Shown here in pieces: positions 4,086 through 30,992 of a stretch of 60,769 bases of DNA (the stretch's first letter is position 1; each line of letters opens with the position of its first letter). The DNA comes from a virus, in the IMG/VR virus record IMGVR_UViG_3300009182_004229, positions 1 through 60,769 of that record. One strand, 5' to 3'. The notes under the pieces were generated by a model, which saw nothing but the letters and a program-made list of their open reading frames with translations, did no database searches and was not told the origin of the DNA. The position numbers were made by a program, and so were the translations under genes.

Positions 4086-4110
4086 TCCAACATCAATCCT
4101 GCGAGTGCCC

Positions 4111-12552: not shown

Positions 12553-13977
12553 ATGTCTCAGCTCATATTATGGAACATGCCAGCCACATATGATAGCACA
12601 GCCAGTGCTGTGAGACCTCTTGGACCACACAAGCTGGCTAGCTGGTTGCGGCAGAATGGATATGCTGTCAAGGTGATAGATTTCGCAGGCTGCATGAGCC
12701 TGGCAGATCTGGTTGCCATCACGGAAAGATGGATCGATCACACCACCCTGGCCATAGGCGTCAGCACCACTTTCTTCCCCAACGAAGATCCTCAGGCTAG
12801 ATCGTCAGGCCAGGCCATAGAACAGGCATTGCCCATGCCAGATTGGGTCAGAGCAGGCCAAGCTGCTGTGGCGGCCAAATACCCTGGCCTGCGTTGGGTC
12901 ATGGGCGGAACTCGAGTCAACCAATTTCTACAGCCTGGCTGGACTGGTTTCACGGGTGCCGGCGAAGATCAGATGCTGGCATGGTTGGATGAGACCAGCC
13001 AAGCAGCTGGTCAGACCAGGCCACGGTTCGATATCACCACCAGCTGTGGTCCCGTGTTCACCGACGACGATCACATAGATCGCTGGGAAGTGATACCGAT
13101 CGAGCTGGGCCGTGGCTGCATGTTCCGCTGTAGGTTCTGCAGCTATGAATATCTGGGCAAGACTCCTGGCACCTATCTGCGCAGTGCTGACAGCATCAAA
13201 GCTGAGATCATGCACTACCATGAGCGCTGGGGCGTCACGAGGTTCTATTACATCGACGACACTGTTAATGAAACAGTGGAAAAGGTGCGCATGCTCAGGG
13301 ACATAGCTGCCAGCGTGCCCTTTAGACTGGAATGGATCGGCTACATCAGGGCTGACTTGGTATGGGCACGCCCCGAGACTGAACAGCTGTTGCTGGAAAG
13401 CGGCCTGCGCAGCACTTTCATAGGCATAGAAAGCTTTGAGTCCAACAGCAGCAAGATGATAGGCAAGGGTTGGTCAGGACTGCACGGCAAGGAATGGTTG
13501 CTGAAGATGCAGCAGCGGTGGGAAGGCAAGATCAACTGGGCGCTGGGACTGATAGTGGGTCTACCTGGACAGACAGAAGCACAGCTCGAAGCTGATGGCC
13601 AGTGGTTGATTGACAACAACATGAACAATTGGCGCTGGGCTGCGCTGTGGATCAGTCCAGGCATGTTTGAAAGCGAGTTCAGCCGCAACAGTCAGAAATA
13701 CGGTTTCAGCTTCCCTGATCCCACTCAGAGCTGGGAGTGGGCACACCAAGAAAGTGGCTGGAACCTGACCAAGGCACGCAAGCTGGTCATGAAATACACT
13801 CGCGCACATCGACCACTGATGAAGCAGGCTGCTTGGCCACTGGGGGATTGGGCTAGCCTGGGATTTGAACTGGATCTTCTCATGCAGGAAAACTGCAAGA
13901 CCAGCCCATACCTACCCATCCTAGCAGAGCGCAAGCTAGCGTTCGTGGAAAATTACGTTGCCCACAGCCTGGCTTGA
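12553..13977 (+). CDS. Cobalamin-domain-type radical SAM protein
   Basis: This 474-residue protein is the first of the cluster. Residues 1-150 have alternating strand/helix segments (VKVIDFAGC, LAIGVSTTFF, LRWVMGGTR) like the Rossmann B12-binding half of class B radical SAM enzymes, although no DxHxxG cobalamin motif is seen. GRGCMFRCRFCSY holds the 4Fe-4S cysteines Cys189, Cys193 and Cys196. FIGIESFESNS and LGLIVGLPGQTEAQL are the conserved late barrel motifs of this subgroup. The ATG at 12553 is chosen because the late box adjoins it; an in-frame ATG at 12517 lies upstream of the box. Substrate unknown; methylation or ring chemistry would be typical. Confidence 0.85.
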   Translation: MSQLILWNMPATYDSTASAVRPLGPHKLASWLRQNGYAVKVIDFAGCMSLADLVAITERWIDHTTLAIGVSTTFFPNEDPQARSSGQAIEQALPMPDWVRAGQAAVAAKYPGLRWVMGGTRVNQFLQPGWTGFTGAGEDQMLAWLDETSQAAGQTRPRFDITTSCGPVFTDDDHIDRWEVIPIELGRGCMFRCRFCSYEYLGKTPGTYLRSADSIKAEIMHYHERWGVTRFYYIDDTVNETVEKVRMLRDIAASVPFRLEWIGYIRADLVWARPETEQLLLESGLRSTFIGIESFESNSSKMIGKGWSGLHGKEWLLKMQQRWEGKINWALGLIVGLPGQTEAQLEADGQWLIDNNMNNWRWAALWISPGMFESEFSRNSQKYGFSFPDPTQSWEWAHQESGWNLTKARKLVMKYTRAHRPLMKQAAWPLGDWASLGFELDLLMQENCKTSPYLPILAERKLAFVENYVAHSLA

Positions 13978-13997
13978 TAGATCAGCCCAACTTTATA

Positions 13998-14006
13998 TGC
14001 TATAAT
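13998..14006 (+). promoter_or_regulatory. Extended -10 promoter candidate
   Basis: TGCTATAAT is a perfect extended -10 element 24 bases before the GTG start of the second radical SAM gene. No good -35 is present. It could give the cluster an internal promoter. Confidence 0.4.
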
Positions 14007-14030
14007 AAATCACGACCTTGGAAACGATCA

Positions 14031-15413
14031 GTGGCAGACAAGCAACGCATAGATGAGCTGGCACCCCTGATGGACGCGATCAGTCCTACCTTCTGCTTGG
14101 CCAAATGGCATCATACCACCATATACCTCCACACCGGCGAGACCCACAGCTGCTATCATCCAGCTCCACATGCCATAGACGAAAAGCGCATTGGCTGGGA
14201 CCCTGGCGCCCTGCACAACACTCGCGAGAAAAAGGCAGAACGTCGCCAGATGCTGAACGGGGGCAAGCCCAAGGGCTGCGACTACTGCTGGAAGATCGAA
14301 GACATGGGCACAGGCTATGTCAGCGATAGGCACATACGCAACAGCACCATCTATCGCCCTGAACGCTTGGCAGAGATCACTGCACTGGGTGCCAACTTTG
14401 ATGTCAAGCCCGAGTACATAGAGATCAGCTTTGGCAACGAGTGCAACTTCAAGTGTGGCTACTGCCATCCCAAGGCCAGCAGCAAATACTACAACGAGAT
14501 ACGAGACCACGGTCCCTATGTCATGGTCAAGAACCATCGCTGCGACATAGATTGGCTGCACATACGCGAAGAAGATTCCAATCCCTTCGTGGATGCTTGG
14601 TGGCAGTGGTGGCCGCAGATCAGAGACACTGTGAACATCATGCGAGTCACTGGCGGCGAGCCTCTGTTACACAGCAGCACCTGGCTGCTGCTGGACGACC
14701 TGCTGGCCAATCCCATGCCCAATCTAGAGCTGAACATCAACAGCAATCTGGGAGTCAAGCCCATCCTGGTGGAGCGCATGAGCCGCAAGGTCAGACAGCT
14801 CATGGATCACGGCTGCATCAAGAGCTTCAGCCTTTATACCAGCATGGATACCTGGGGTCCACAGGCAGAATACATACGCACAGGCTTAGACTTGGCGACC
14901 TGGGAGCAGAACCTAGACACCTATATGACAGTGAGCGGCCAGATCGTCAGCTTTATGATCACCTTCAATGCGCTGAGCGTGCCCAACTTCCAGTCACTGC
15001 TGGTCAAGCTGTTGGAATGGCGTGCTCGATATGCTCCCACACATGATCCCAAGCCCAAGATACGCAACGTGCGGTTTGACACGCCCTATCTCAGAGAGCC
15101 ACTGCAGTATGACATCAACATACTGCCCAAGGCAGAATTCATGCCCTATATGCATGCTGCGTTGGCCTACATGGAAGCTCACGAGGATGACGAGAACAAG
15201 CAGGCCTTTGGCACCCTGGAGGTAGACAAGTTCCGACGAGTGGTGAGATACATGGAGACCACTGCGTACACAGAGGATAAAATAACAGAGGGCAGGCGAG
15301 ACTTCCATGCTTGGTTCACGGAGCATGATCGCCGACGGCACACGGATTTCACGGCCACTTTCCCAGAGCTGGTTGAATTTTACAGGGAGTGCGCTCAGAT
15401 CCATGAACACTGA
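14031..15413 (+). CDS. Radical SAM protein with N-terminal SPASM/twitch-like domain
   Basis: The 460-residue protein begins with a cysteine-rich domain (FCLAKWHHTT, HSCYHP, GCDYCWKIEDMG, about residues 22-95). This looks like the auxiliary-cluster half of SPASM or twitch domains placed before the barrel. The radical SAM core follows with NECNFKCGYCHP (Cys138, 142, 145) and VTGGEPLLHS, the S-adenosylmethionine-binding GGE motif. This N-terminal-twitch architecture is known from marine phages and bacteria, but with no proven reaction. The GTG at 14031 is preferred; a TTG at 13974 overlapping the previous stop (TTGA) would add 19 residues. SAM cleavage with unknown substrate is expected. Confidence 0.87.
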   Translation: MADKQRIDELAPLMDAISPTFCLAKWHHTTIYLHTGETHSCYHPAPHAIDEKRIGWDPGALHNTREKKAERRQMLNGGKPKGCDYCWKIEDMGTGYVSDRHIRNSTIYRPERLAEITALGANFDVKPEYIEISFGNECNFKCGYCHPKASSKYYNEIRDHGPYVMVKNHRCDIDWLHIREEDSNPFVDAWWQWWPQIRDTVNIMRVTGGEPLLHSSTWLLLDDLLANPMPNLELNINSNLGVKPILVERMSRKVRQLMDHGCIKSFSLYTSMDTWGPQAEYIRTGLDLATWEQNLDTYMTVSGQIVSFMITFNALSVPNFQSLLVKLLEWRARYAPTHDPKPKIRNVRFDTPYLREPLQYDINILPKAEFMPYMHAALAYMEAHEDDENKQAFGTLEVDKFRRVVRYMETTAYTEDKITEGRRDFHAWFTEHDRRRHTDFTATFPELVEFYRECAQIHEH

Positions 15414-17649
15414 TGATCTCATAGACTCCAAGAAGAATGAAGTGTTCTGCATGCTGCCTTGGACGCACATGCACTTCTGGCCAGATGGCCGCACCATGCC
15501 CTGCTGCATCACGGACCCTAACACCAACGTGTTGGGCAACTTCAACGATCAGACCATAGCACAGCTGTGGAACAGCGAACTGATCCGCGACATGCGACGC
15601 AACATGCTGGCAGGTCGACGCAGCCATGCCTGCAGCAAGTGCTACGAGCAAGAGTCAGCTGGCGTGGAAACTCTGCGCATCAGCAGCAATGCTGAGCTCA
15701 AGCAGCATCTGCCCTTGGTCTCGGAGACTGCTGATGATGGTGCTCTGCCTCGCGTGAACCTGGCATACCTGGACATACGCTTCAGCAACATCTGCAACCT
15801 GCGCTGCAGGACCTGTGGCCACGGTCTCAGCAGTGGATGGTACGACGAGTACAAGGCTCGCTGGCCAGAATACAGCCAGCCCCGCATCATGAACATCAAC
15901 AAGTCCGGGGACTTCTGGGCTCAGCTGCTGCCGCATCTGGACCACACTGAGCATGTGCACTTCGCAGGCGGTGAGAGCCTCATGACTGACGAGCATTATC
16001 GCATGCTGGACCATTGGATCAGCCGAGGTCTCAAGTACGTGCTGCTGCGCTATACCACCAACTTCACGGTGCTGAACTACAAGAAGCGTGATCTGTTCGA
16101 ACTGTGGAAGAACTTCAACAACATCAGGGTGGCAGCTAGCTTGGATGGCAGCCATGCTCGCGGAGAGTATCTGCGCAAGAACATGGTGTGGAGCGAGGTA
16201 GTGGAGAACCGCCGCCGACTGATGCGAGAAGTGCCTAAGGTGGTGTTTGCGATCACGCCCACCGTGAGCCTCATGAACGTGCTGCACCTGCCTGACTTCC
16301 ACAGGGAATGGATAGAGCTGGGCCTGCTGGAACCCCAGCATGCACGGCTGAACATACTGACCTGGCCCAACCACAGCAGCGTGCGAGTGCTGCCCAGCCA
16401 TCTCAAGGACCAAGCGCGGCACAAGATACGCGAGCACCAGACCTGGCTGAGGTCACTGGGCACGCCAGACTGGTATGTCAGCAACTGGGACAGCGTGATC
16501 AACGTCATGGACAGCAGCGACGACAGCCACCTCATCCCTGACTTCCTCCGCGAGACCAAGCTGGTGGATGGCATGCGCAAGGAAAGCTTCTTTGACACGT
16601 TCCCCGAGCTGGCCAGCATGGATCCTGATGCCCGGCCCCGCTCAGTGCCCGCAGCGGCTGTGCCTTCAGCAGTGACTACTGGTGCTCAGCTGGACAGGAT
16701 AGACTGGAGCGGCGAGCCAGTGCTGTTCATCACCTGGCAGACCAGCGATGTCTGCAACCATCGCTGTGGCTACTGCAACCCTGGCAACTATGGCGGCACA
16801 CAGCCCAACACTGACATCAAGGCCTACCAGCGCAACATGGCCACCATGTTGGCTGCCATGCGCGACCGAGGCTTCAAGAGGATCAAGCTGTTCCTCAGCG
16901 GAGGCGAACCCACGCACTGGCAGGGGCTCATACCCATGCTGGACTGGTTCAAGTTCAGCAGCGACTATGACGTCACGGTGGCCATCAACACCAACCTCAG
17001 CAGGCCCACGGTGTGGTGGGAGAGGTTCCACAGTTACTTCGACGACGTGGTGGCCAGCTACCACCCCGAGTGGGTCAAGCACGAGCAGTTCATGGCCAAT
17101 GCCAAGTACTTGGAGACCAGAGTCAACTACTTGGCCATACGCATGATGATGGCCGAGGACCACTGGGATAGCCAGATGGCGCGTGCTGATGAGATCTTTG
17201 ATGCCATGGGTAACGTGCACATGGAATACGTACCCATACTGGCCGAGATGAGCACTGCGGCCGAGCCCTATGACTACAGCGACAAGAACAAGATAGACTG
17301 GCTGATGAACAACAACCTGCGCATCAAGCAGACGCTGACCAAGCCCAAGAACAGAGTGGGCAGCACAGCCACCATGGAGCATTGGAGCGACGGCACGGTG
17401 CAGCCAGTGAACAGCAACAGGTTGGCAGCAGAGCGCGTCAACTTCTTTGAGGGTTGGCAGTGCGATCTTGGTACCAGCATCAACATAGGCATCAATGGCG
17501 ACATAACCCTGGGCAGCTGTGGCGTCAGCGGAGTCATAGGCAACATCTCTGGGCAGCTGAACCTGGACAGCCTGCCCGTGACAGTGACCTGCAGCAAGCA
17601 CCACTGCCACTGCGGCACTGACATCTGCATCCCCAAGAGGCGCACATGA
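15403..17649 (+). CDS. Tandem double radical SAM protein
   Basis: This 748-residue protein carries two radical SAM domains in one chain. Order: N-terminal SPASM-like region (VFCMLPWTHMHFW, PCCITD, CSKCYEQE, residues 14-90); first core with NICNLRCRTCGHG (Cys131, 135, 138) and FAGGESLM; second core with DVCNHRCGYCNPG (Cys451, 455, 458) and LSGGEPTHW; then a C-terminal twitch-like region (GWQCDLG, GSCGVSG, CSKHHCHCGTDIC). The start at 15403 overlaps the previous gene by 11 bases and has AGGGAG upstream. The first core ends with a FDTFPELASM element that also closes the single-domain homologues, so this looks like a fusion of two ancestral genes. Confidence 0.88.
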   Translation: MNTDDLIDSKKNEVFCMLPWTHMHFWPDGRTMPCCITDPNTNVLGNFNDQTIAQLWNSELIRDMRRNMLAGRRSHACSKCYEQESAGVETLRISSNAELKQHLPLVSETADDGALPRVNLAYLDIRFSNICNLRCRTCGHGLSSGWYDEYKARWPEYSQPRIMNINKSGDFWAQLLPHLDHTEHVHFAGGESLMTDEHYRMLDHWISRGLKYVLLRYTTNFTVLNYKKRDLFELWKNFNNIRVAASLDGSHARGEYLRKNMVWSEVVENRRRLMREVPKVVFAITPTVSLMNVLHLPDFHREWIELGLLEPQHARLNILTWPNHSSVRVLPSHLKDQARHKIREHQTWLRSLGTPDWYVSNWDSVINVMDSSDDSHLIPDFLRETKLVDGMRKESFFDTFPELASMDPDARPRSVPAAAVPSAVTTGAQLDRIDWSGEPVLFITWQTSDVCNHRCGYCNPGNYGGTQPNTDIKAYQRNMATMLAAMRDRGFKRIKLFLSGGEPTHWQGLIPMLDWFKFSSDYDVTVAINTNLSRPTVWWERFHSYFDDVVASYHPEWVKHEQFMANAKYLETRVNYLAIRMMMAEDHWDSQMARADEIFDAMGNVHMEYVPILAEMSTAAEPYDYSDKNKIDWLMNNNLRIKQTLTKPKNRVGSTATMEHWSDGTVQPVNSNRLAAERVNFFEGWQCDLGTSINIGINGDITLGSCGVSGVIGNISGQLNLDSLPVTVTCSKHHCHCGTDICIPKRRT

Positions 17650-18911
17650 CCACTGACAGCTTCTGCGTGATGCCATGGCGCAATCTCAACACCACTCCCA
17701 TGGGCCAGTGCAAGCTCTGCTGCAACATACAGGATTTCAAGGTCATACATGAGGTGGGCGGCACTCCCTTGAACTGGGGCACCAACAGCCTCACGCACAT
17801 CTGGAACGGTGAGCACATGCAGGGCGTGCGGCAGAAGATGCTGCAGGGTGAACAGGTCAGCGACTGTGGCATCTGTTATGGCATCGAAGCCAGCGGGGTA
17901 GCTAGCCCACGGCAACTGGCCAATCAAGCACAGCCCATGGATAGATCTCTGCTAGGTAGGATCAGCGACAGCTTGCCTGTGAGTTTTGAGCTGCGGCCCA
18001 GCACTCGCTGCAACCTAACCTGCGTCACTTGCTGGAGCGGCAGCAGCGACAGGGTGGCTGCACAGAGGCGTGAGCTTTTGGATGATGACAACACAGTGCT
18101 ACCGCCGTGGTTGGCCAAAGAATGGCACAAGGAGCTGCGCATCAACAAATCAGATGGCAGCGAAGAATGGAAAAGCGATGGTGATTACATAAGCAGGTCG
18201 CAGAGCCTTGACAACTTCAAACTCATGGCACCAACCCTGCAGCGTCTGTATATCACAGGCGGCGAGCCAACCATGGATGCCAATATCTATCAGTATCTGG
18301 ACATACTGCTGGAGGCAGGCAACACTGACTGCGAGGTCAGCTTCACCACCAACTGCACCCTGTGGAATCCCAAGCTGATACAGCAGCTGAGCCAGTTCAA
18401 GACAGAAGTGCAGATCAGCATAGACGGTTTTGGTGCGCAGGACGAATTCATACGGCAGGGCACAGTGTGGAGTGAAAAGGACCAAAACTTCCGTCGCTAT
18501 CTCAGCAGTGGCATGGCACAGAGCATCAAGATATTCACGGTGGTCAGCGCACTGAACTGCCTCAGCATGCGACCTCTGCTGCGGCACATCAGCTACACGG
18601 TACAAGAGATAGGGACCCCCTGCATATGGTTCCCCATAGTCTTGGATTTTCCGCCATATCTCAGCGTTGAAGCTGTGCCACTGGCAGCTCGGCAGTCTGC
18701 TTGGCGCGATCTAAAGCGCAGCATTCCTCAAGGCCCCTGTGACATGCATCATGGCATCGCGTATGCCCAGCAGGTGGTGACCAACAGGCCCTTTGACAGT
18801 GATCTCAGCCTGAGGCTGCAGCAGTGGTTGGTGTTCAAGCGCACAGCGCATGGCATAGACACTGCTGACATATTACCAGAGCTCACGGAGGCCCTTGTTG
18901 CCTGTGCCTGA
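17646..18911 (+). CDS. Radical SAM protein with N-terminal SPASM/twitch-like domain
   Basis: This 421-residue protein has the same plan as its neighbours: SFCVMPWRNLNTT, CKLCCNIQD and CGICYGIEASG at residues 6-85. The core CxxxCxxC motif is in TRCNLTCVTCWSG (Cys122, 126, 129) and the GGE motif is YITGGEPTMD. VQISIDGFGAQDEFIRQG is the barrel strand typical of the group. It starts in a four-base ATGA overlap with the double radical SAM gene, so translation is coupled. It is divergent enough from its neighbours to suggest separate substrates or steps. Confidence 0.87.
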   Translation: MTTDSFCVMPWRNLNTTPMGQCKLCCNIQDFKVIHEVGGTPLNWGTNSLTHIWNGEHMQGVRQKMLQGEQVSDCGICYGIEASGVASPRQLANQAQPMDRSLLGRISDSLPVSFELRPSTRCNLTCVTCWSGSSDRVAAQRRELLDDDNTVLPPWLAKEWHKELRINKSDGSEEWKSDGDYISRSQSLDNFKLMAPTLQRLYITGGEPTMDANIYQYLDILLEAGNTDCEVSFTTNCTLWNPKLIQQLSQFKTEVQISIDGFGAQDEFIRQGTVWSEKDQNFRRYLSSGMAQSIKIFTVVSALNCLSMRPLLRHISYTVQEIGTPCIWFPIVLDFPPYLSVEAVPLAARQSAWRDLKRSIPQGPCDMHHGIAYAQQVVTNRPFDSDLSLRLQQWLVFKRTAHGIDTADILPELTEALVACA

Positions 18912-20157
18912 ACATCCCAGCTTCTGCGTGCTAGCCTACAACAGCCTCAGCCTGGATGGTCCCGGCCGGCCACGTCTATGCTGCAACAACCACGGCCACT
19001 GGAAGGACTTCAGCAATCCATTCATCACTGACATCACTGAACCCTTGGAAGTGCTCAACAGCCCGCTGCACAAGGCCGTGAGGCAGAGCATCGCTAAGAG
19101 TGAGAGACATCCAAGCTGCAGCAAGTGCTGGCAGATCGAAGACACTGGTGGTGTCAGCTTCAGGCATATCTGGAACGGTGTCTACAGCGATCTGGGATAC
19201 AGCTGCCAGCCGCGTGCCACGGCCAGCGACGGCACGCTGCTGCCAGGCAGTGACATACAGTATCTGGACATAACCTTTGGCAATAAGTGCAACCTAGTGT
19301 GCCGCATGTGCAACTGGGCCAACAGCCACCTGTGGACCATAGACAACATCAAGCTGGGCAGGCATGACAGCTATGCTGATCAGCGTGCCTCACACCAGCA
19401 GTGGTTCGAGGATCCCAGGGCCATGGAGGTGATACTCAGCACGCTGCCCACGGTCACGCACATCAACTTCCTTGGCGGGGAACCGCTGATCATAAAGCAG
19501 CATCACGAGATCCTTGAAGCCTGCGTGGCGCAGCAAGTGGCACATCGCATCAGCATCAGCTACAACACCAATCTCACGCACATGCCCAGCCAGCTGCTGG
19601 AGCTGTGGCAGCAGTTTGGCCACATAACCATCAATGTCAGCCTCGAAGCAATCGGCAAGGCCAACGACTACATACGTCAGAACAGCAGCTGGGCAGACAT
19701 CATGCGTAACCTACGTGCGCTACTGAGCATAGCAAAGCACCAAGAGACCATGAAGATCGACATACACACCACGTTCGGTCTATACAACTGTTTCAGTGCT
19801 GCTGAGCTGATAACATGGTGCAGGCAAAGGCCTGGATTGGGTGGGCTGCCATTCGTGAACGTGGTCTATCATCCCAGCTACCAAGACGTGAGGCTGCTGC
19901 CAGACAGTGCCAAGCGCACGGTGCGTGATCAGATACTAGCCGCGCTGGAGGGCATGCAGCAGCATCAATATCACGCATCCTGGATAGCGGCACTGAACCA
20001 CATGGACCAAAGCAGTGACTCGGTGTCTGCTCATCGCAACCCCGGATGGCCCACTGACCTGTGGCTTCAGTTCTGGCATGACGCTGGCGAGATAGATCGG
20101 CTCAAGAACAGGGCCATGGCTGATCACTTACCCCAGCTCTGGGAGCTGCGACCATGA
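18904..20157 (+). CDS. Radical SAM protein with N-terminal SPASM/twitch-like domain
   Basis: This 417-residue protein opens with SFCVLAYNSLSL, RLCCNNHG and CSKCWQIEDTGG, the permuted auxiliary-cluster domain. The radical SAM core has NKCNLVCRMCNWAN (Cys129, 133, 136) and FLGGEPLIIK. The start is uncertain: GGAGG at 18887-18891 could serve TTG at 18898 or GTG at 18904, and all candidates overlap the previous stop. It closes in ATGA with the glycosyltransferase-like gene. The CRMC variant of the SAM motif is shared with the stand-alone homologue at 39831. Confidence 0.87.
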   Translation: MPEHPSFCVLAYNSLSLDGPGRPRLCCNNHGHWKDFSNPFITDITEPLEVLNSPLHKAVRQSIAKSERHPSCSKCWQIEDTGGVSFRHIWNGVYSDLGYSCQPRATASDGTLLPGSDIQYLDITFGNKCNLVCRMCNWANSHLWTIDNIKLGRHDSYADQRASHQQWFEDPRAMEVILSTLPTVTHINFLGGEPLIIKQHHEILEACVAQQVAHRISISYNTNLTHMPSQLLELWQQFGHITINVSLEAIGKANDYIRQNSSWADIMRNLRALLSIAKHQETMKIDIHTTFGLYNCFSAAELITWCRQRPGLGGLPFVNVVYHPSYQDVRLLPDSAKRTVRDQILAALEGMQQHQYHASWIAALNHMDQSSDSVSAHRNPGWPTDLWLQFWHDAGEIDRLKNRAMADHLPQLWELRP

Positions 20158-21413
20158 CCGTGCACTGGGTGTTTGACGATCCCACAAGGTTCAGGACCAT
20201 GACGGCCTGCCCAGTGACCACCCTGGGTGTGAGAGATCACTTGGTAACTGGTAGGTTTCCCATTGCCAATTTCTTCCATTACTGGCGCAACAACTTTTGG
20301 AACCGATCCGACGTGGTATGGCAGCACAGCAGCGTCGCCGATCGTCCACGCAACTATGCCTACAACATAGGCACGTGGCAGGATGCGCAGTATTGGACCG
20401 GTTGGCAGGGCAACCAAGTTGGTTTCGACTGCTTTCTCAACCACGTGCCGCCAGAGGTCATGGCCGATGCTCAGCAGGGCCGCGCGCTGTTGGTCATAGA
20501 CAATCTCAACGAAGGTTTCTATGAACCGAGGCTCTATGAGTATCTGCATCAGTGCTGTGCAGAGTATGCGCTGCCTCCCAGCTCGCTGTGCTTTCTCACT
20601 GGCAATGATCTTGATCACAGAGGCTATGCTGAATGGTGCGACGGTCTTGGCATCAGGGCTCGCATCACCATCATTGGATTCCCGCACCTGCTGTACATGC
20701 AGCAGCTGAACCTACGAAACAGCACGCGACTAACCTGGGAAGATCAGATAGCTGCCAAGCGAGACGGCAGGCCAATCAGCCTTTACAACTGCCTCAACAG
20801 GGTCAGCAGGCAGCACCGCGAGCTCATGGTCATGAAGCTGATCGAGTCAGACCTACATCAGGAAGGCCTGGTCAGCCACAACCAGCTATGGTATCATGGC
20901 TGGCCAGACTGGGGCGTGCCGGAAGCTGTGATCAACAAGGCTCAGGCCACGCTGCCACTGATAGTGGATGACGCAGACTTTGGCAACAACAAGGCCATGC
21001 ACATCAATACCAGCATCTACACCAACAGCTGGTTCAGCGTGATCAACGAGACCCATGCCTTTGACGAGCCACACAATCTGTTCATCAGCGAAAAGCTGTG
21101 GAAACCAATCTGGGCGCTGCAGCCGTTCATGGTCTGGGGTCACCAGAACACGCTGGCACTGCTGCGCAGCTGGGGCTTCGAAACCTATGGCTGCCTCTGG
21201 GACGAGATCTATGACAGCCAAACCGATCTAGCCAGGTTGGAGCTGATACTGCAGAACCTGCGCGAAGCACGGTGGCACAGGGACAAGCTGCACTGGTGGA
21301 TGCGCTGCCGAGAAGTCTGCGAGCACAACCAACAGCTGTTCTGCGGCATGGATTGGTTCAACAGCAGCCACCATCAGCAGTTCCTTGCTGCCTATCGTGG
21401 ACTAAACAGCTGA
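20154..21413 (+). CDS. Putative glycosyltransferase-like protein
   Basis: This 419-residue protein has no radical SAM motif. Its C-terminal part reads SWFSVINETHAF, then LFISEKLWKPIWALQPFMVWG (about residues 285-325). That matches an SExxF/W-KP-xxxxPF pattern common in glycosyltransferase-like proteins of phages and capsule loci. PISLYNCLNRVSRQHRELM, mid-protein, is a typical preceding element in that group. The N-terminal third is not recognised. It sits between radical SAM genes with a four-base overlap upstream and one base downstream, so it should act on the same product. The glycosyltransferase call rests on motif memory and is moderate. Confidence 0.55.
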   Translation: MTVHWVFDDPTRFRTMTACPVTTLGVRDHLVTGRFPIANFFHYWRNNFWNRSDVVWQHSSVADRPRNYAYNIGTWQDAQYWTGWQGNQVGFDCFLNHVPPEVMADAQQGRALLVIDNLNEGFYEPRLYEYLHQCCAEYALPPSSLCFLTGNDLDHRGYAEWCDGLGIRARITIIGFPHLLYMQQLNLRNSTRLTWEDQIAAKRDGRPISLYNCLNRVSRQHRELMVMKLIESDLHQEGLVSHNQLWYHGWPDWGVPEAVINKAQATLPLIVDDADFGNNKAMHINTSIYTNSWFSVINETHAFDEPHNLFISEKLWKPIWALQPFMVWGHQNTLALLRSWGFETYGCLWDEIYDSQTDLARLELILQNLREARWHRDKLHWWMRCREVCEHNQQLFCGMDWFNSSHHQQFLAAYRGLNS

Positions 21414-23317: not shown

Positions 23318-23414
23318 TTGGCTTTTGTCCCCATACCGGCGCTGGCGTAGCTGGCGCAGATACCAACAGCGCATGTCTGAGCTGCGCAAGCGCGATCCGT
23401 TCATCTACAGATGA
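23304..23414 (+). CDS. 36-residue Trp/Arg-rich small protein
   Basis: This short gene has an ideal AGGAGG site, overlaps the previous gene by 14 bases, and overlaps the next by ATGA, so it is almost certainly translated. The peptide begins MRLLDWLLSPYRRWRSWRRY and ends ELRKRDPFIYR. An amphipathic Arg/Trp face and a KRDPFIY-like end are, from memory, shared by small conserved proteins of marine T4-like phages. It may thus be a membrane-edge accessory protein. Because it lies inside a radical SAM operon and is loaded with Trp, Arg and Tyr, a role as a modified peptide substrate must also be considered. Confidence 0.75.
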   Translation: MRLLDWLLSPYRRWRSWRRYQQRMSELRKRDPFIYR

Positions 23415-24223
23415 GCACGGCCAGGCTCATAGCATTTGGCGACAGCTGGACCTGGGGCAGCGAGCTGCGAGACCCAAGCATACCAGGCTTGCGCGAGGAC
23501 TTTGACCATCGAGACAGTGGCTATAGGCTTGAGCATGTGTGGAGCAGCTGCCTCGGTCGTGCCATTGGCAGAGATGACGTGATAAATCTAGCTTGGCCTG
23601 GCTGCAGCAATGACACCATTCTGCGCAGTCTCACCGAGTGGCTGATCACACAGGGATATCTGCAGGGCCAGGACCCGAGCAGGGATCTAGTAGCCATAGG
23701 TTGGACCAGCCCTGAACGCAGAGATTTTTGGTTCCATGACGTGGATGATCCCAGCTGCGTCGATCGGGGGTGGTTGACCATGTATCCCATGTGGACTCAC
23801 ACCTACAAGCATGCTGCAATCAACAGGTTCAGCAGAGAATACGTGCGGTATTGGTGGCATGCTGCGGAATACATGCATCGCTATATCAACACCATACATC
23901 GTGCTCAGCAGCTGCTAGAGGCCGCAGGCGTTGAATACTTCATGTTTCAGGCCATATACCACCATCATCAGCAGCTGATCACCGAATGGAATGATCAGCA
24001 GTATCAGGTCCAGCACGAGCTGAAGATCAGCGACGCAGACAGGCAGATATGGCAGCTGATAGACGGTGATCGATTCATGCACAAGGATCAACCTCTGGCC
24101 ACGTTTCACAATCACATAATCGGAGACCGTGATCCCAGAGAAGTTCTGCTGATCAGCCATCCCAACGAGCTGGGCCATCGACTGTGGGCTGATCATATCT
24201 GTGATTGGTTGACGCAGCGATGA
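23411..24223 (+). CDS. SGNH/GDSL hydrolase-like protein
   Basis: This 270-residue protein has the block I motif LIAFGDSWTWGSE (catalytic Ser in GDS), a NLAWPGCSNDTILRS stretch fitting blocks II-III, and LISHPNELGHRLWADH near the C terminus for the late His. SGNH enzymes are esterases, lipases or carbohydrate O-deacetylases. It starts in an ATGA overlap with the small peptide gene and ends in another with the following gene. Placement suggests removing or adding an acyl group on the product of the cluster. Related GDS proteins lie at 49572 and 51614. Confidence 0.72.
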   Translation: MSTARLIAFGDSWTWGSELRDPSIPGLREDFDHRDSGYRLEHVWSSCLGRAIGRDDVINLAWPGCSNDTILRSLTEWLITQGYLQGQDPSRDLVAIGWTSPERRDFWFHDVDDPSCVDRGWLTMYPMWTHTYKHAAINRFSREYVRYWWHAAEYMHRYINTIHRAQQLLEAAGVEYFMFQAIYHHHQQLITEWNDQQYQVQHELKISDADRQIWQLIDGDRFMHKDQPLATFHNHIIGDRDPREVLLISHPNELGHRLWADHICDWLTQR

Positions 24224-24966
24224 GAGCAGCTGTTTTTCTCAGAGGCCACAGGCGTACCTGGGATCAGACCCGCGACGCCATGACCCAGACCATGTCAGCC
24301 ATCTGTGACCAAACCCACTACTATATCTGCCAATGGCGCACAGACAGCTGCAGAGATTTCGATGCTTACAGAGACATGCAGATCATGCATGCGGAGCTAA
24401 CAGGTCCCGAGCATTGGGATATCGCAGACAACATCAACAGCGCTACTGCGCCTAGCTGGCAATCGCTGCGTTGTTATAAAGCTATGAAGGCCACTGGCAT
24501 TGACTATGACATGATCATCGATACCAGATCAGATATCTGGATATCGCCCACTGAGATCAAGATTAGCCTGCCTCGGCAGGGAGAGATCTACACCACCAAG
24601 CTGGAGAATCCCTGGTATGACAGTGTGATGCCTGGCATGGAGGATCACTTGTTTGCTGCCGAACCAACCACCATGGGTATATGGTGCCAAAGGCACCTGA
24701 GACCACGCAGTGACATCAGCTTCAATCACTGCATACTGTGGCAATACTGCGTGGATCTAGGGCTTGAACCAAGGCAGATACCGTGGTTATTGTCACGGTT
24801 CGTGCGTCCAAACGTGGGCCATGCACCGCAGCATGACAGCGGGTTGTTGAGTACCCTGCAGCATGAATGGACAGGCCTTTCGCAGCAAGCAAGGCTGGCC
24901 CACTGCTTGGCTATGGGCATCGATCCCAGAGAATATGCGGCAGAATATCACATAGGACCATGTTAA
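24220..24966 (+). CDS. Glycosyltransferase-like protein
   Basis: The 248-residue product shares layout with the protein at 1428-2129: an N-terminal AAVFLRGHRRTWDQT strand and YDMIIDTRSDIWI mid-protein. Such YDxIIxxRxD patterns occur in nucleotide-sugar-transferase-like families. The start overlaps the SGNH gene by ATGA. A 56-base gap, the largest within the second half of the cluster, follows before the dehydrogenase gene. The assignment is by pattern only; a paralogue of unknown function is the safe reading. Confidence 0.5.
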   Translation: MRAAVFLRGHRRTWDQTRDAMTQTMSAICDQTHYYICQWRTDSCRDFDAYRDMQIMHAELTGPEHWDIADNINSATAPSWQSLRCYKAMKATGIDYDMIIDTRSDIWISPTEIKISLPRQGEIYTTKLENPWYDSVMPGMEDHLFAAEPTTMGIWCQRHLRPRSDISFNHCILWQYCVDLGLEPRQIPWLLSRFVRPNVGHAPQHDSGLLSTLQHEWTGLSQQARLAHCLAMGIDPREYAAEYHIGPC

Positions 24967-24969
24967 CAC

Positions 24970-24999: not shown

Positions 25000-25022
25000 T
25001 ATCTCATAGCCGGAGGACAGAC

Positions 25023-26183
25023 ATGCGCGTGGGTATGATAGGTTTGGGCAAGCTGGGCTTGCCTGTGGCAGAGGCCATGGCAAGAACACATGATGTCATG
25101 GGCACTGACATACGACCAGTGACCACTGAACGTGTCAAGCTGGGCACCTTGGCCGAAGTGGCTGCTCACAGCGAGATACTGTTCATAGCAGTGCCAACAC
25201 CGCACGACCCGGCCTACGATGGCAGTGCTCCCACCAGCCACTTGCCCAGCAAGGATTTTGATTACAGCACCGTGATCGCTGTGCTGCAGCAGCTAGAACA
25301 CTGTGACATCGAAAACACAACAGTGGTGCTGATCAGCACAGTGCTGCCAGGCACGCTACGCAGGCAGCTGGCTAGGCATATCAGCAAGACCAACTTGGTC
25401 TACAATCCCTATCTCATAGCCATGGGCACCGTGGCACACGACATGGTCCATCCAGAGATGATACTGATCGGCACGGCCACTGGCACAGAAGATGCTGCCG
25501 TGGAACAGCTCAGGGCATTCTATGCGCCCATGATGCAGAACGATCCCAGGGTGATCACAGGCACCTGGGAAGAGATGGAAGCCATCAAGATCTTCTACAA
25601 CACCTTCATCTCAGCCAAGATTGGCCTGGTCAACATGATACAGGACGTGGCCGAGAGAGTGGGTAACATGGACAGCGACTTGGTTGCCCGTGCGCTGGCA
25701 GACAGCACGCAGAGGATCATGGGTCCGGCCTACATGAAACCAGGCATGGGCGACGGTGGACCCTGCCATCCCAGAGACAACATAGCACTGCGCTGGTTGG
25801 CCCAGCGCTTGGACCTGGGCTATGATCTGTTTGACGGCATCATGCGTGCTCGCGAAGTGCAGGCCGACAACCTAGCACGCGAGCTGGTCAGCCACAACCT
25901 ACCCGTGGTCATACTGGGCAAGAGCTACAAGCAGGGCGTGGATCACACAGACGGCAGCTATAGCCTGCTGGTTGGACACTGCTGCGAGTCCAGAGGTGCT
26001 GTGGTCAGCTATGATGCGATCAGCCTGGCCCCAGCTGTGTATCTGCTGGCACATCAGCGCTATTACACAACAGAGATGGAACAGATTGCTCAGGGCAGCG
26101 TGGTGGTGGATCCATGGCGCAGTACCACAGTGCCAGATGGCATAGAGCTGATACCCTATGGTAACACGAGAAGCATCACATGA
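25023..26183 (+). CDS. UDP-glucose/GDP-mannose dehydrogenase family protein
   Basis: This 386-residue protein has the NAD-binding GMIGLGKLGLPVAEAM start, FIAVPTP and STVLPGTLRR central motifs, and the catalytic segment GMGDGGPCHPRDN (Cys248). The C-terminal domain is marked by VILGKSYKQGVDHTDGSYS. The family oxidises the C6 hydroxyl of a nucleotide sugar to a carboxylate with two NAD+, giving a uronic acid donor. It is slightly shorter than common bacterial enzymes, and the substrate (UDP-glucose, UDP-HexNAc or GDP-mannose) cannot be told. The start has GGAGGACAG. It ends in ATGA with the next radical SAM gene. Confidence 0.88.
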   Translation: MRVGMIGLGKLGLPVAEAMARTHDVMGTDIRPVTTERVKLGTLAEVAAHSEILFIAVPTPHDPAYDGSAPTSHLPSKDFDYSTVIAVLQQLEHCDIENTTVVLISTVLPGTLRRQLARHISKTNLVYNPYLIAMGTVAHDMVHPEMILIGTATGTEDAAVEQLRAFYAPMMQNDPRVITGTWEEMEAIKIFYNTFISAKIGLVNMIQDVAERVGNMDSDLVARALADSTQRIMGPAYMKPGMGDGGPCHPRDNIALRWLAQRLDLGYDLFDGIMRAREVQADNLARELVSHNLPVVILGKSYKQGVDHTDGSYSLLVGHCCESRGAVVSYDAISLAPAVYLLAHQRYYTTEMEQIAQGSVVVDPWRSTTVPDGIELIPYGNTRSIT

Positions 26184-27157
26184 GCACAGACATACTGAAC
26201 GGCTACACTCGCCTGGAACATGCCAACACTGAGTTGGCCAAGATAATCAACGTAAACTGGTGCATGGGCAACACCTGTAACTTTGAGTGCAGCTACTGCC
26301 CCAAGAGCCTGCATGATGGCAGCCATGGTTGGTATGACTATGACAGCGTGCTGCAGTTCTGTGAACGCATCATAGATCACTACAAGAGCACCATATACTT
26401 TGAGTTCACCGGCGGCGAAGTCACGCTGTGGAAGCACTTCCCAGATCTCTGCCAGTGGCTCAAGGCTCGAGGCTGCAGGGTAGGTTTCATCAGCAACAGT
26501 TCTCGCACCCTGCGCTGGTGGGAAGACATCTTGGATCACGTGGACCACGTGTGCCTCAGCTTCCATCCCGAAGCAGGTGACAAGTCGCACTTCCTGCAGG
26601 TGGCAGCCATGACCAGCCAGCGCATACGCACGCACGTTAACCTCATGATGCTGCCGGATCGCTTTGATGAGCTCTATGACTTTGCGGTGCGGCTCACGGA
26701 GATTACCAACATCAGCATGGCGCTGCAGCCACTGCTGATCAACTTTGGTGAGGAAGTCTATCCCTATGCACCAGAGCAGCAGGAACGCATCGACAGGCAG
26801 TATGAGCTGGTCAGCAAGCACATCACTCATGATCGGCAGTTTGAAAACTACCGAGGTGCCATGGCCATGGTACGTCCAGATGGCAAGCGAGTGGTCATGG
26901 CCCCGCAGAAGTTCATCAGCCAGCAGGTCAACAGCTGGCAGGGCTGGCACTGCTGGGCAGGTCTAGAAAACATCATCGTGGACATGGACGGCAAGATATA
27001 CCGAGGATGGTGCCGCGAGGGTGGCAGCATAGGTCATGTGCTTGACCAAGATCTGAACCTACCTCTAGCTCCGGTGCTGTGCACCAAGAACCGCTGCCAC
27101 TGCAACTTTGACATAATGTGCACCAAGGAGAAGATCAATGGACTTCACGCCGGGTAA
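26180..27157 (+). CDS. Radical SAM protein with C-terminal twitch-like domain
   Basis: This 325-residue protein has its SAM cluster early: GNTCNFECSYCPKS (Cys33, 37, 40), followed by FEFTGGEVTLW. Unlike the N-terminal-twitch group, its auxiliary cysteines are at the C terminus (GWHCWAGLENIIVDMDG, WCREGGS, CTKNRCHC, about residues 255-315). This is the canonical orientation for twitch domains. A 20-base overlap with the next gene, whose own AAGGAG site lies inside this one, indicates coupled translation. Substrate unknown. Confidence 0.86.
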   Translation: MSTDILNGYTRLEHANTELAKIINVNWCMGNTCNFECSYCPKSLHDGSHGWYDYDSVLQFCERIIDHYKSTIYFEFTGGEVTLWKHFPDLCQWLKARGCRVGFISNSSRTLRWWEDILDHVDHVCLSFHPEAGDKSHFLQVAAMTSQRIRTHVNLMMLPDRFDELYDFAVRLTEITNISMALQPLLINFGEEVYPYAPEQQERIDRQYELVSKHITHDRQFENYRGAMAMVRPDGKRVVMAPQKFISQQVNSWQGWHCWAGLENIIVDMDGKIYRGWCREGGSIGHVLDQDLNLPLAPVLCTKNRCHCNFDIMCTKEKINGLHAG

Positions 27158-28160
27158 ACCACTGCGAGCCTATGCTGCTGACGGCACGTGGCGCGACTTC
27201 AGCACTGACGAGATAGTGGGACAGAGGCTCAACTACTATAAAGGTTGGCACTGTGGCGTAGGTGTGGAGAACCTGTTCATCGACTCAGACGGCATGGTGC
27301 ATGGTGCTAACTGCAGGGTAGGTGGCAAGCTTGGCAACGTTTTTGACGATTTTGCCATACCCACACACTGGTCTACCTGTGACCTACCAACTTGCTCGTG
27401 CGGCAGCGATCTTTTCATTCCCAAGAGCCGCACTCCCGATTTGGCCAAGCTGCTGCGCAGGACGCAGGACTTGGCAACCGAAGTAGGCAAGCGAGACTCC
27501 CAGCTGCGAGACATAGCCGCGCTGGAGCGCACCCATGCCAGCAGCGTGAAGCAGGTGTTCTGGGAGATAGGCAGGCGCTGCAACTTTGACTGCAGCTACT
27601 GTTCTCCTAAGATACACAATAACTTCGAAGCTCACAAGAGCTTGGACGAGCTGATGTCAGCTACCCAGAGGATACAGGACAAGTTCATAGGACAAGGGCG
27701 CTGCAACTTCATAATCAGCGGCGGAGAGCCAACAGCTAACTCGGCTTTCCTGGACTGGTGCAGATACATCAACAGCTGCGGCTATCATCTCAGCATGCAC
27801 AGCAACGGTAGCAGGCGACCGGAATACTACAGCGAGCTGATCAACTACGGTGATCTCAATCTCAGCGCTCACTATGAGTTCTGGAACCAAGATAGGTTCC
27901 TTGAAGTGGTAAATGCTGTCACACAGCAGAAGTTCAGCAAGCACAACCGAGGCGTGGGACATCTCGAGATAAAGCTGATGATGAAACCCGGAACCACTGA
28001 CGACACGCTGGCATTCGAAGATAGGCTCAAGGCCATACCAAACTTTACCAACTACTGCACCTGGGCCATAGTGCCAGTGCGAGACAATGAAGATCGCCAT
28101 CTGTTAGATGGCTACAGCAACAGCGACTTTGAGCTGTTTGGAGACCGTAATGGCAAGTAA
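27138..28160 (+). CDS. Radical SAM protein with permuted N-terminal twitch-like domain
   Basis: In this 340-residue protein the first 100 residues (GWHCGVGVENLFIDSDG, NCRVGG, CDLPTCSCGSDLF) are clearly homologous to the C-terminal domain of the preceding protein, but here they precede the barrel. A helical linker (RTQDLATEVGKRDSQLRD) leads to the core with GRRCNFDCSYCSPK (Cys148, 152, 155) and IISGGEPTANS. The chain ends soon after the barrel. The two adjacent genes are thus circular permutations of each other. AAGGAG seven bases before the ATG supports the start. Confidence 0.86.
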   Translation: MDFTPGKPLRAYAADGTWRDFSTDEIVGQRLNYYKGWHCGVGVENLFIDSDGMVHGANCRVGGKLGNVFDDFAIPTHWSTCDLPTCSCGSDLFIPKSRTPDLAKLLRRTQDLATEVGKRDSQLRDIAALERTHASSVKQVFWEIGRRCNFDCSYCSPKIHNNFEAHKSLDELMSATQRIQDKFIGQGRCNFIISGGEPTANSAFLDWCRYINSCGYHLSMHSNGSRRPEYYSELINYGDLNLSAHYEFWNQDRFLEVVNAVTQQKFSKHNRGVGHLEIKLMMKPGTTDDTLAFEDRLKAIPNFTNYCTWAIVPVRDNEDRHLLDGYSNSDFELFGDRNGK

Positions 28161-29520
28161 CATACGCAACACAGCCTGCAGCTTTGCCTGGGACTATCCC
28201 AACATCATGTTCAGTGGCAGCAAGATCAAGAACTGCTGCCGCGGACCTTGGTCCAAGCCATCACATGCTGACATGGACAGGCAGGGCGTGGATCTGTTCA
28301 GCAACCACGAACCCATGCTGGAGGTGAAGTCAGCGCTGCTGCGAGGCCAGAAACACAGGTTCTGCAGCAAGTGCTATGAGGCCGAGCAGGCCGGCGTGGG
28401 CAGCCCGCGCAATGGTCTGGGTGGGCTGGCCAGCTACGTGGAAAGGACCAACTACTTCCCAGGCAAGTCAGCCACGGAGATAGAACAGCTGCTGCTGTCA
28501 CTGACACCGCAGCAGCAGGCAGAGATAGCACGCCTGCGATCGCCCAACCTCATCGAGATATCGCTGGACAGCACCTGCGATCTCAAGTGCATGTACTGCA
28601 ACCTCTACTACAGCACCCAGTGGGCTTCAGAAGCGCTGCAGCATGGCGACGTCACGCCAGACGTGCTGCGCCGCGAGCTGCCGGACACTGATCCGCGGTT
28701 CGAGCAGCTGTTCTGGGAATGGTTCGAGAGCTATGCCTATGAGCAGGCAGAATGCATCAACTTCATAGGTGGAGAGCCCTTGATCATTGACCGCTACTAC
28801 CAGTACATGGAGAGGATCACTGCCAAGTATCTCAGCGCGGGGCGCACGCGGCCACTGTACATGTCAGCAGTGACCAATCTCAACACGCCTCCTCGCTACA
28901 TGGATCGCTGGCTGGACTGCATCGGCAAGCTGTTGGACTGCAGCAGCCAGACCCGCATGGTGATCAAGATCAGCCAAGAGAGCCTGGGCGCACGCGCAGA
29001 GTTCATACGCACCGGCCTCAGCTGGACGCGCTTCGAGTCAAACTTCAATCGCCTGCTGCGTTTCAAGCAGGAGCATGCTGAAGCATGGCGCATCAGGATC
29101 GACATCATTGCTAGCCACAATGCGCTGTCGGTCAGCGATTCACCTGCGTTCTTTGCCTGGGTGGCCGATCTGGTTGATGCGCATAGCACGGAGATAGGCA
29201 TCAACCCACAGCAGATACAGTATCCTCAGTGGTTAAACGTGTCAGTGCTGCCTGCCAGCTACGGCAGCTATCTGCAGCGCAGCGCCGATCTGCTGCGATC
29301 ACGCCGAAGGCACCAGATCGACGATGTGCACAGGGACTGGCTGCCCTACGCTGATTGGCTTGACGGGCTGGCCAAGAGCATCAGAGATCCACACAAGCCG
29401 CGCGAGCACCAGCAGGCTTTCGTGCGAGAGCTGGACAAGCTGTGCCATCGGCGTGGTCTGGACTTTGCTGCCACCTTCCCTGAGATGATGGAATTCTATC
29501 AGACATGCAAGGCCCTATGA
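28150..29520 (+). CDS. Radical SAM protein with N-terminal SPASM/twitch-like domain
   Basis: This 456-residue protein has the N-terminal cysteine domain (TACSFAWDYPNIMF, KNCCRGPW, CSKCYEAEQAGVG, residues 10-85), an extra helical insertion, then the core with STCDLKCMYCNLYY (Cys143, 147, 150) and FIGGEPLIID. The C-terminal FAATFPEMMEFYQ resembles the end of the protein at 14031. ATG 28150 is preferred to 28108 because TGGAGA lies just before it. It overlaps the previous gene by 11 bases and the carbamoyltransferase by four. It is the last radical SAM gene of the contiguous cluster. Confidence 0.87.
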   Translation: MASNIRNTACSFAWDYPNIMFSGSKIKNCCRGPWSKPSHADMDRQGVDLFSNHEPMLEVKSALLRGQKHRFCSKCYEAEQAGVGSPRNGLGGLASYVERTNYFPGKSATEIEQLLLSLTPQQQAEIARLRSPNLIEISLDSTCDLKCMYCNLYYSTQWASEALQHGDVTPDVLRRELPDTDPRFEQLFWEWFESYAYEQAECINFIGGEPLIIDRYYQYMERITAKYLSAGRTRPLYMSAVTNLNTPPRYMDRWLDCIGKLLDCSSQTRMVIKISQESLGARAEFIRTGLSWTRFESNFNRLLRFKQEHAEAWRIRIDIIASHNALSVSDSPAFFAWVADLVDAHSTEIGINPQQIQYPQWLNVSVLPASYGSYLQRSADLLRSRRRHQIDDVHRDWLPYADWLDGLAKSIRDPHKPREHQQAFVRELDKLCHRRGLDFAATFPEMMEFYQTCKAL

Positions 29521-30992
29521 TAACCTGGGGCATATCAGCTGGTGGACATGACGCGGCCATCGCTGTGCTCAAGCAGGGCGAGATAGCATTTGCCGCACAT
29601 GCGGAGCGCTATAGCAGGCACAAGAACGATCCGCATATCTGTTGGCCGCTCATACGCCAAGCATTCGCACACGGTGAACCAGACCAGATCATATGGCATG
29701 AAAAACCATGGTTGCTGCACACTCGTGCCATATACGCTGGACAATGGTCAGAAGCATTTAGCGCCAGTCCGCGCCAGCAGCTGCGTGGTAACTTCTTGGA
29801 GCACACACCTATCCGCACAGTAAGCCATCATCACAGCCATGCTGCTGGCGGATACTACACCAGTGGTTTCAGGGACGCTGCTATCGTTGTGGTAGATGCT
29901 GTGGGTGAATGGGACACTCTCAGCATCTGGGAAGGCCACTGGGACCAGCTGCGCAAGCGTGCCAGCATCAGATATCCCAACAGCCTCGGACTGTTCTACT
30001 CAGCCATGACACAGCGCTGTGGGTTCAAACCCAACGAAGAGGAATACATCATGATGGGCCTAGCGGCGCTGGGTGATCCTCAGAGGCTAGAGCAGCAGAT
30101 CTGTGATGACATAATAGAAGTCACCACTGACTGGCCCTTCTTCAGATTGCGACGCAATCTGCACAGAGGTTGCCAATGGTGGTTGCCCGGAGAAAACAAT
30201 ACAGCAGACATAGCCGCTGCGGCGCAGAACATATTCACCAAGATCATGATCAGTATCTGTGCGCATGCTCGCGACCTAGTGGGCAGCAACAATCTAGTGT
30301 TCAGCGGGGGCAGTGCCCTGAACTGCGTGACCAACAGTGCGTTGACCCACAGCAATATCTGGGACCGCATCTGGATCATGCCCAATCCCGGCGATGCTGG
30401 TAACAGCATTGGTGCTGCTCTAGCATACCACGGTGAGCACATCAAGTGGCAGGGTCCCTATCTTGGACATGACATACCAGGTGACTATCCTGTGCATAGG
30501 ACGCTGGCAGTGCTGGGACTGGGACAGATAGTGGGTGTGGCCAATGGTCGCGCAGAGTTTGGACCAAGAGCGCTGGGCAATCGCAGCCTCTTTGGTGATC
30601 CCAGAGATCCTGACATCAAGGACAAGATGAACACGGCCAAGCAGCGCGAAGCATTCAGACCGTTCGCTCCTGTGATACTGGAAGAACTGGCTGGCAGCTA
30701 TTTTGACGTGCTGGGCCAGGATCACAGCTACATGCAGTACACTGTGCGCTGCAAGGACCCTGACATCTATCCTGGTATAGTGCATGTGGATGGTACCAGC
30801 AGGCTACAGACGGTGGGAAGAGCGCAGCATCCAAGTCTCTGGGAGCTGTTGGTGCGTTGGTACAACAGCACAGGATGTCCCATGCTGGTCAACACTAGCC
30901 TCAACATCAAGGGGCAGCCCTTGGTTAACACCGAAGCTGATGCTGAAGCTTTCACGGCTGCTTATGGAATCCCTGTGTTCTGCAGGGACTAG
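29517..30992 (+). CDS. NodU/CmcH-type carbamoyltransferase
   Basis: This 491-residue protein matches the two-domain O-carbamoyltransferase family. The N-terminal Kae1-like domain has GISAGGHDAAIAVLKQGEI, SHHHSHAAGGYY (metal-binding His), LVFSGGSALNCV and NPGDAGNSIGAAL. The C-terminal domain has AEFGPRALGNRSLFGDPRD and REAFRPFAPVILEE. Members move a carbamoyl group from carbamoyl phosphate, through carbamoyl adenylate, to a hydroxyl on a sugar or natural product. It closes the cluster, starting in ATGA with the last radical SAM gene, which points to a glycan or small-molecule product. It is convergent with the holin gene, overlapping by four bases. Confidence 0.92.
   Translation: MITWGISAGGHDAAIAVLKQGEIAFAAHAERYSRHKNDPHICWPLIRQAFAHGEPDQIIWHEKPWLLHTRAIYAGQWSEAFSASPRQQLRGNFLEHTPIRTVSHHHSHAAGGYYTSGFRDAAIVVVDAVGEWDTLSIWEGHWDQLRKRASIRYPNSLGLFYSAMTQRCGFKPNEEEYIMMGLAALGDPQRLEQQICDDIIEVTTDWPFFRLRRNLHRGCQWWLPGENNTADIAAAAQNIFTKIMISICAHARDLVGSNNLVFSGGSALNCVTNSALTHSNIWDRIWIMPNPGDAGNSIGAALAYHGEHIKWQGPYLGHDIPGDYPVHRTLAVLGLGQIVGVANGRAEFGPRALGNRSLFGDPRDPDIKDKMNTAKQREAFRPFAPVILEELAGSYFDVLGQDHSYMQYTVRCKDPDIYPGIVHVDGTSRLQTVGRAQHPSLWELLVRWYNSTGCPMLVNTSLNIKGQPLVNTEADAEAFTAAYGIPVFCRD

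Follow-up and report, generated by a model that had tools for sequence, protein, structure and literature searches.

An ordered cassette of radical SAM and sugar-handling genes in large T4-like phages that probably makes an unusual sugar decoration

Phages that carry the gene cassette described here probably make an unusual sugar decoration by radical chemistry. Judging from its genes and their surroundings, we see about an even chance that this is a cytosolic cassette of large T4-like phages, which would supply tail or baseplate proteins with a radical-tailored, C-methylated, and carbamoylated sugar. More tentatively, diverse uncultured T4-like large phages may share a pathway of up to about ten radical SAM (rSAM) enzymes, by which a C-methylated, carbamoylated sugar of unseen chemistry is placed on their own tail.

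The DNA analyzed is the 60,769-base IMG/VR virus record IMGVR_UViG_3300009182_004229 (hereafter the window), which has no end repeats and is therefore probably a fragment. Between 12,553 and 30,992 it holds 14 co-directional genes in a single run. A sequence-only reading had described nine rSAM genes with ten domains within 18.4 kb of this run, mostly ATGA or short-overlap junctions, and interleaving with glycosyltransferase-like, SGNH, nucleotide-sugar dehydrogenase, and carbamoyltransferase genes, and these points were all confirmed. The nine rSAM genes and their ten domains span 12,553-29,520, with CX3CX2C motifs at 13,117 (r1), 14,442 (r2), 15,793 and 16,753 (r3), 18,009 (r4), 19,288 (r5), 22,001 (r6), 26,276 (r7), 27,579 (r8), and 28,576 (r9), and every one of these genes is supported by a Pfam or NCBIfam match. 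Pfam Radical_SAM itself scored above its cut-off for r1, r3, r4, r5, r6, r7, and r8, and below it for r2 and r9. When the likely start codons are used, 11 of the 13 junctions overlap, 5 of these by 4 bases, and the two gaps measure 93 and 56 bases. Of the interleaved genes, those for the DUF6071/GDSL protein, the dehydrogenase, and the carbamoyltransferase have Pfam matches, and the GT-B protein was recognized by its fold. Among the other frames of at least 60 amino acids in the window, CX3CX2C occurs only in three minus-strand frames of 63-77 amino acids and in a further rSAM gene at 39,831-40,973, which lies outside the run and was missing from the earlier list. The relevant genes are as follows:

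r1, 12553..13977, + strand: B12-class-like radical SAM protein, PhpK/BzaD-like but far below those cut-offs (PF04055 47.6 bits; TIGR04479 60 bits against a cut-off of 600)
r2, 13974..15413, + strand: N-terminal-twitch (N-twitch) radical SAM enzyme, at which the conserved order starts (NF033640 303 bits)
r3, 15403..17649, + strand: N-twitch rSAM enzyme (r3N) fused to a C-terminal-twitch rSAM enzyme (B) (NF033640 428 bits; two rSAM domains)
r4, 17646..18911, + strand: N-twitch radical SAM enzyme (NF033640 242 bits)
r5, 18895..20157, + strand: N-twitch radical SAM enzyme (NF033640 294 bits)
gt6, 20154..21413, + strand: predicted GT-B-fold glycosyltransferase (model pLDDT 85; top PDB fold matches nearly all GT-B enzymes)
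r6, 21413..23317, + strand: predicted TokK/CysS-like cobalamin-dependent radical SAM C-methyltransferase (profile E 1.9e-140 with TokK and 4.2e-81 with CysS)
DUF6071 protein, 23411..24223, + strand: SGNH/GDSL-type hydrolase or acyltransferase (PF19547 48.7 bits; Lipase_GDSL slightly under cut-off)
gt9, 24205..24966, + strand: family not known, possible glycosyltransferase (resemblance judged by eye)
ugd, 25023..26183, + strand: nucleotide-sugar dehydrogenase (UDP-glucose/GDP-mannose dehydrogenase; PF03721, PF00984; PHROG 9148 UDP-glucose dehydrogenase 301 bits)
r7, 26180..27157, + strand: radical SAM protein with C-terminal cysteine-rich (twitch-like) domain, B family (PF04055 37.7 bits; B-family alignment)
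r8, 27138..28160, + strand: radical SAM protein with B-type cysteine-rich domain at the N terminus (PF04055 49 bits)
r9, 28150..29520, + strand: N-twitch radical SAM enzyme (NF033640 199 bits)
cmt, 29517..30992, + strand: predicted NodU/TobZ/GdmN-type O-carbamoyltransferase, the final gene of the cassette (PF16861, PF02543)
r10x, 39831..40973, + strand: additional N-twitch radical SAM gene, not in the run (NF033640 239 bits)
FdxA-type ferredoxin, 1050..1394, - strand: possible electron donor (Fer4, DUF3470)

Most of the rSAM enzymes belong to one family. NF033640, the NCBIfam model for twitch domain-containing radical SAM proteins, has a cut-off of 170 bits, which was exceeded by r2, r3, r4, r5, r9, and r10x (199-428 bits). 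In 24 aligned members of this N-twitch family the four N-terminal cysteines of the auxiliary cluster, the CX3CX2C cysteines, and a GGE motif are invariant, thus none of these proteins looks decayed, and the NF033640 members of the cassette are predicted SAM-binding and SAM-cleaving N-twitch enzymes. A search with the r2 model for similar folds gave AprD4, SkfB, viperin, and NifB (best E 1.6e-3), and because these matches were weak and mixed, we did not use them to assign a substrate class. A second type comprises r3C, r7, and r8 and is marked by a twitch-like domain, rich in cysteines, at the C- or N-terminal end; r8 has a different domain order, and its distant viral relatives can be aligned across almost its full length. 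The r1 gene stands outside the conserved core order. The r6 family aligned with TokK over residues 18-604, including the B12 domain and the rSAM core, and with CysS over the core; in r6 the cysteines of the radical SAM motif are intact, as is the tryptophan that corresponds to residue 76 of TokK. It differs from TokK, CysS, and KedN5 in its phage setting and in its score with the KedN5 family model NF033712 (256.5 bits), which is under the curated cut-off of 700. TokK itself C-methylates carbapenam, and no beta-lactam genes were seen in the cassette.

The sugar-handling genes were assigned in different ways. Both carbamoyltransferase domains of cmt, N- and C-terminal, scored above cut-off (141.8 and 167.1 bits), its profile matched PDB entries of novobiocin-type enzymes (E 2.9e-77), TobZ (about 1e-50), and also GdmN, and the His and Asp motifs are invariant in the family. 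For gt6 there was no Pfam or sequence-family match, and since its profile yielded only chance matches to PDB sequences, its class was taken from the fold comparison, in which E-values were about 1e-4 and TM-scores about 0.4. The gt9 protein matched neither Pfam nor PHROG, and has a look-alike, again judged by eye, at 1428-2129 on the minus strand. Several of the glycosyltransferases named here were assigned from fold, weak profiles, or motifs alone and are candidates for this activity.

The window contains other genes that deserve mention. Adjoining the cassette, at 10724-12193 (- strand), lies the gene for a sigma-70 factor of the RpoD type, in which region 1.2 and the non-essential region are both present; such a factor is unusual for a phage, and similar proteins are found beside the cassette in the relatives G002 and L188. 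A subtilase at 7348-9456 (- strand; Peptidase_S8 153.7 bits) appears to carry a signal sequence, and its long C-terminal part resembles an autotransporter when judged by eye. Two proteins with Gly-X-Y collagen-like repeats (28-1053 and 4105-5064, + strand) are likely fibers and possible glycan acceptors. At 50382-51524 (- strand) there is a PLP-dependent ornithine/DAP/arginine-type decarboxylase, and the right end of the window cuts an NAD-epimerase-like frame that starts at 60693 (60693-60769, + strand; ITGGCGYVGSH) and is possibly another sugar gene.

Viral contigs provided relatives of r3, r8, and cmt, and further loci were obtained by scanning with the r2 family and the TokK-like family, the r2 subfamily being used because the alignment of family A was too diverse for scanning. 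Gene order was counted in 95 deduplicated viral loci, found with r2, the TokK-like enzyme, or the carbamoyltransferase as seeds, a choice that inflates the joint presence of cassette genes but not their order. The order shared across viral contigs is r2, r3N copies, B, gt6, the TokK-like gene, ugd, and cmt. In these loci r2 came first in all comparisons with r3N (28/28), B (18/18), the TokK-like gene (18/18), ugd (30/30), and cmt (10/10), and it preceded gt6 in 46 loci, with gt6 on the other strand in 7 and the order reversed in none. A few pairs that do not start with r2 vary, for example B and ugd, whose order was 9 against 4. The partner of r3N varies as well: it is B in the window, G002 and G007 have r3N joined to a different N-twitch enzyme, and G003 and G004 carry every part as a separate gene. 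According to the sequence-only reading, random subsets of these genes without conserved order would have spoken against a shared pathway; the viral contigs showed no such pattern, as r2 pairs were never reversed in the 95 loci. We did not retain the explanation that unrelated rSAM genes had accumulated by chance, since divergent contigs keep the order. Based on this order across divergent phages and on the alternative fusions of the same parts, we favor the reading that the cassette genes form one predicted pathway. The number of rSAM matches per contig reached 22 in a 518-kb phage contig (G003), with 11 and 17 in others. Of note, G003 has extra rSAM clusters of four to five genes each beyond its main cassette, at 374-388 kb and 142-152 kb (L092, L093), and in one lineage (L022, L032, L036, L042, L064, and L082) a protein of about 360 amino acids without Pfam match, Family X, is encoded with the last rSAM gene on one side and the SGNH/carbamoyltransferase genes on the other.

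To describe the surroundings, we counted genes on the same strand as r2 in 47 r2 loci, not deduplicated, that had at least 5 kb of upstream sequence. Virion-type (tail/baseplate) genes of the STR317 or TAILFIB families were present upstream of r2 in 42 of these loci, GT8-like genes in 43, and GTx genes in 44. In PA5oct-type phages the proteins matched by TAILFIB are virion structural or baseplate proteins, and STR317 is a conserved virion-like protein found upstream in viral loci. The GT8-like proteins match glycogenin, a self-glucosylating protein, with E 1e-4, and GTx had no match at all, PDB sequences included. A T4-type Gp23 capsid gene was found in 10 of 20 long relatives. Repeated neighbors in the relatives include an NAD epimerase, a DegT/StrS aminotransferase, a cytidylyltransferase/mannose-P isomerase, and several SGNH families. 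When adjoining tail-fiber or baseplate genes are taken as the mark of a host-recognition cluster, 42 of the 47 loci of relatives carry it, and none was found beside the cassette in the window. In the window's own lineage STR317, TAILFIB, GT8, and GTx were not found beside the cassette, thus the tail context comes from the relatives. A simple hydropathy scan detected no membrane segments in the window cassette; the same held for the cassettes of 18 of 19 relatives, and one gene in L014 was the exception. This result argues for a cytosolic acceptor.

Among 50,697 phage records r2 had no match, and the TokK-like enzyme had one weak match. In the viral contig scan at least 593 viral relatives of r2 were found. 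Bacterial relatives come mainly from Bdellovibrionota metagenome-assembled genomes (MAGs), and two Bacteriovoracaceae genomes contain 28 and 25 N-twitch matches, compared to none above cut-off in 14 control genomes. The r2 tree shows 13 changes between virus and bacterium, at least 10 of them on well-supported branches, indicating that r2 has been exchanged repeatedly. Bdellovibrionota were not adopted as host, since several of the bacterial contigs are short MAG pieces, possibly misbinned virus, and the mixing in the tree has no direction. In two Bacteriovoracaceae loci (L302 and L304) an r2-like gene lies with genes for PqqD, an S24-like peptidase, an ABC-2 exporter, GT1 enzymes, StrS, and a carbamoyltransferase, a bacterial cluster that we did not recognize.

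From the gene families, their intact motifs, their order, and the tail-gene neighborhood of the relatives, we infer a substrate, reactions, a product, and an acceptor. Host NDP-sugars would be oxidized by the ugd dehydrogenase, and in relatives also changed by the epimerase and the StrS aminotransferase. The N-twitch and B-type rSAM enzymes would then oxidize, epimerize, deoxygenate, or decarboxylate the sugar, and the TokK-like r6 would add one or more methyl groups to unactivated carbon. Glycosyltransferases would link the sugar to proteins of the virion tail or baseplate, which in relatives are encoded by neighboring genes, and cmt would cap a hydroxyl. The purpose may be altered adsorption or shielding of the virion. 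Electrons could come from the FdxA-type phage ferredoxin, a gene found in 11 of 24 rSAM-bearing records compared to 1 of 7 carbamoyltransferase-only records, and located directly after the carbamoyltransferase gene in G018. In two relatives the ferredoxin match contains an in-frame TAG (G002, 55156-55500; G031, 57419-57762). The order, the alternative fusions, and the position near tail genes favor one pathway with its product on a surface structure, and the sugar enzymes favor a glycan. The initial proposal was a multi-step pathway for an unusual carbamoylated glycan, nucleotide sugar, or peptide. The single pathway is supported by order and fusions, and the sugar context by glycosyltransferases, epimerase, sugar dehydrogenase, StrS aminotransferase, carbamoyltransferase, and upstream tail genes; the product may be any of the three types. 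The label "marine" found no support in the present analysis.

Among the papers found on phage rSAM enzymes with carbamoyltransferases, tail fibers, cobalamin rSAM enzymes, or Bdellovibrio, only PMC7029224 was directly relevant. The excerpts of that paper describe pelagimyophage host-recognition clusters that hold tail fibers, glycosyltransferases, of which GT8 is the commonest, and rSAM gene cassettes, the latter mentioned for one genome pair; rfaE and UDP-glucose dehydrogenase occur in the same phages, with this content largely within the clusters. Such a T4-like phage island with tail fibers and glycosyltransferases resembles the cassette loci of the relatives, but the excerpts describe no carbamoyltransferase, TokK-like or cobalamin rSAM enzyme, conserved order, or pathway. 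Therefore, the earlier statement that no phage pathway with this content has been described holds, within the papers searched, for an ordered multi-rSAM pathway with a TokK-like enzyme, and has to be narrowed for rSAM cassettes, GT8, rfaE, and UDP-glucose dehydrogenase, which the excerpts of PMC7029224 already note. The carbamoyltransferases of the pelagiphage HTVC008M and the cyanophage S-SSM5 belong, like cmt, to PHROG 1601, but they are about 26-35% identical to it, and no rSAM gene is annotated nearby in either record; in HTVC008M the gene lies near a glycosyltransferase, a methyltransferase, and a UDP-glucose dehydrogenase. Vibrio phage K566, a named phage record, shares four N-twitch rSAM genes beside proteins that are glycosyltransferase-like by eye, but no B, TokK-like, or carbamoyltransferase gene was recognized in that stretch, and the r2 model gives the K566 rSAM proteins low scores. 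Mycobacteriophage virion proteins also carry glycans (Freeman 2023, as cited in PMC12619734), and the excerpt of PMC12619734 does not mention a radical SAM pathway.

The same sugar pathway might have the host envelope as acceptor, the LPS core or O-chain being altered during infection against superinfection or against loss of progeny on debris. GT8 enzymes are able to act on the LPS core, the exporter, GT1, StrS, and carbamoyltransferase genes at the Bacteriovoracaceae r2 loci fit such a role, and in the excerpts of PMC7029224 the pelagimyophage glycosyltransferases, read as O-chain modifiers, rfaE, and UDP-glucose dehydrogenase are interpreted in this way. However, no membrane-bound transferase or exporter was recognized in the viral cassettes, which in most relatives adjoin virion structural genes, and we consider a host acceptor unlikely. 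The rSAM enzymes could also modify a peptide or virion protein directly, by C-methylation, epimerization, or crosslinks in a RiPP-like manner, and that protein would also receive the sugar and the carbamoyl group from the sugar enzymes. In favor of this reading, peptides are frequent substrates of SPASM/twitch rSAM enzymes, the N-twitch domains are SPASM-like, with SkfB and other peptide maturases among the profile matches, the peptide-recognition protein PqqD is encoded beside r2-like genes in Bacteriovoracaceae, and the conserved virion-like STR317 lies upstream in viruses. However, PqqD was absent from all 17 viral records, and no short precursor gene was recognized in the cassette, so that the two marks of RiPP maturation, a PqqD/RRE protein and a precursor peptide, were both missing there. 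Moreover, r6 is nearest to TokK, which has a small beta-lactam substrate, and scores higher with the KedN5 model than with the RiPP C-methyltransferase model, making direct peptide modification doubtful.

Very unlikely, in our judgment, is hypermodification of DNA bases or production of a diffusible small molecule during infection, even though TokK, GdmN, and TobZ come from antibiotic pathways and phage DNA hypermodification includes carbamoyltransferases and rSAM enzymes. A Tet/JBP dioxygenase was found in none of 20 relatives, which weighs little since the control was silent too, and the tail-gene neighborhood together with several glycosyltransferases suits a surface glycan better.

Phage rSAM genes are usually noted one at a time with their job not known, and here they form what appears to be an ordered, recurrent pathway that mostly adjoins tail genes and of which natural-product-type enzymes, the TokK-like enzyme and the carbamoyltransferase, are part. 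That phages and Bdellovibrionota have enzyme families in common is an unexpected clue to the host or to gene exchange, and the cassette may supply new radical enzymes that act on sugars, or on peptides. What had been an unconnected collection of auxiliary genes thereby becomes a question open to experiment, namely what these phages place on their tails or hosts.
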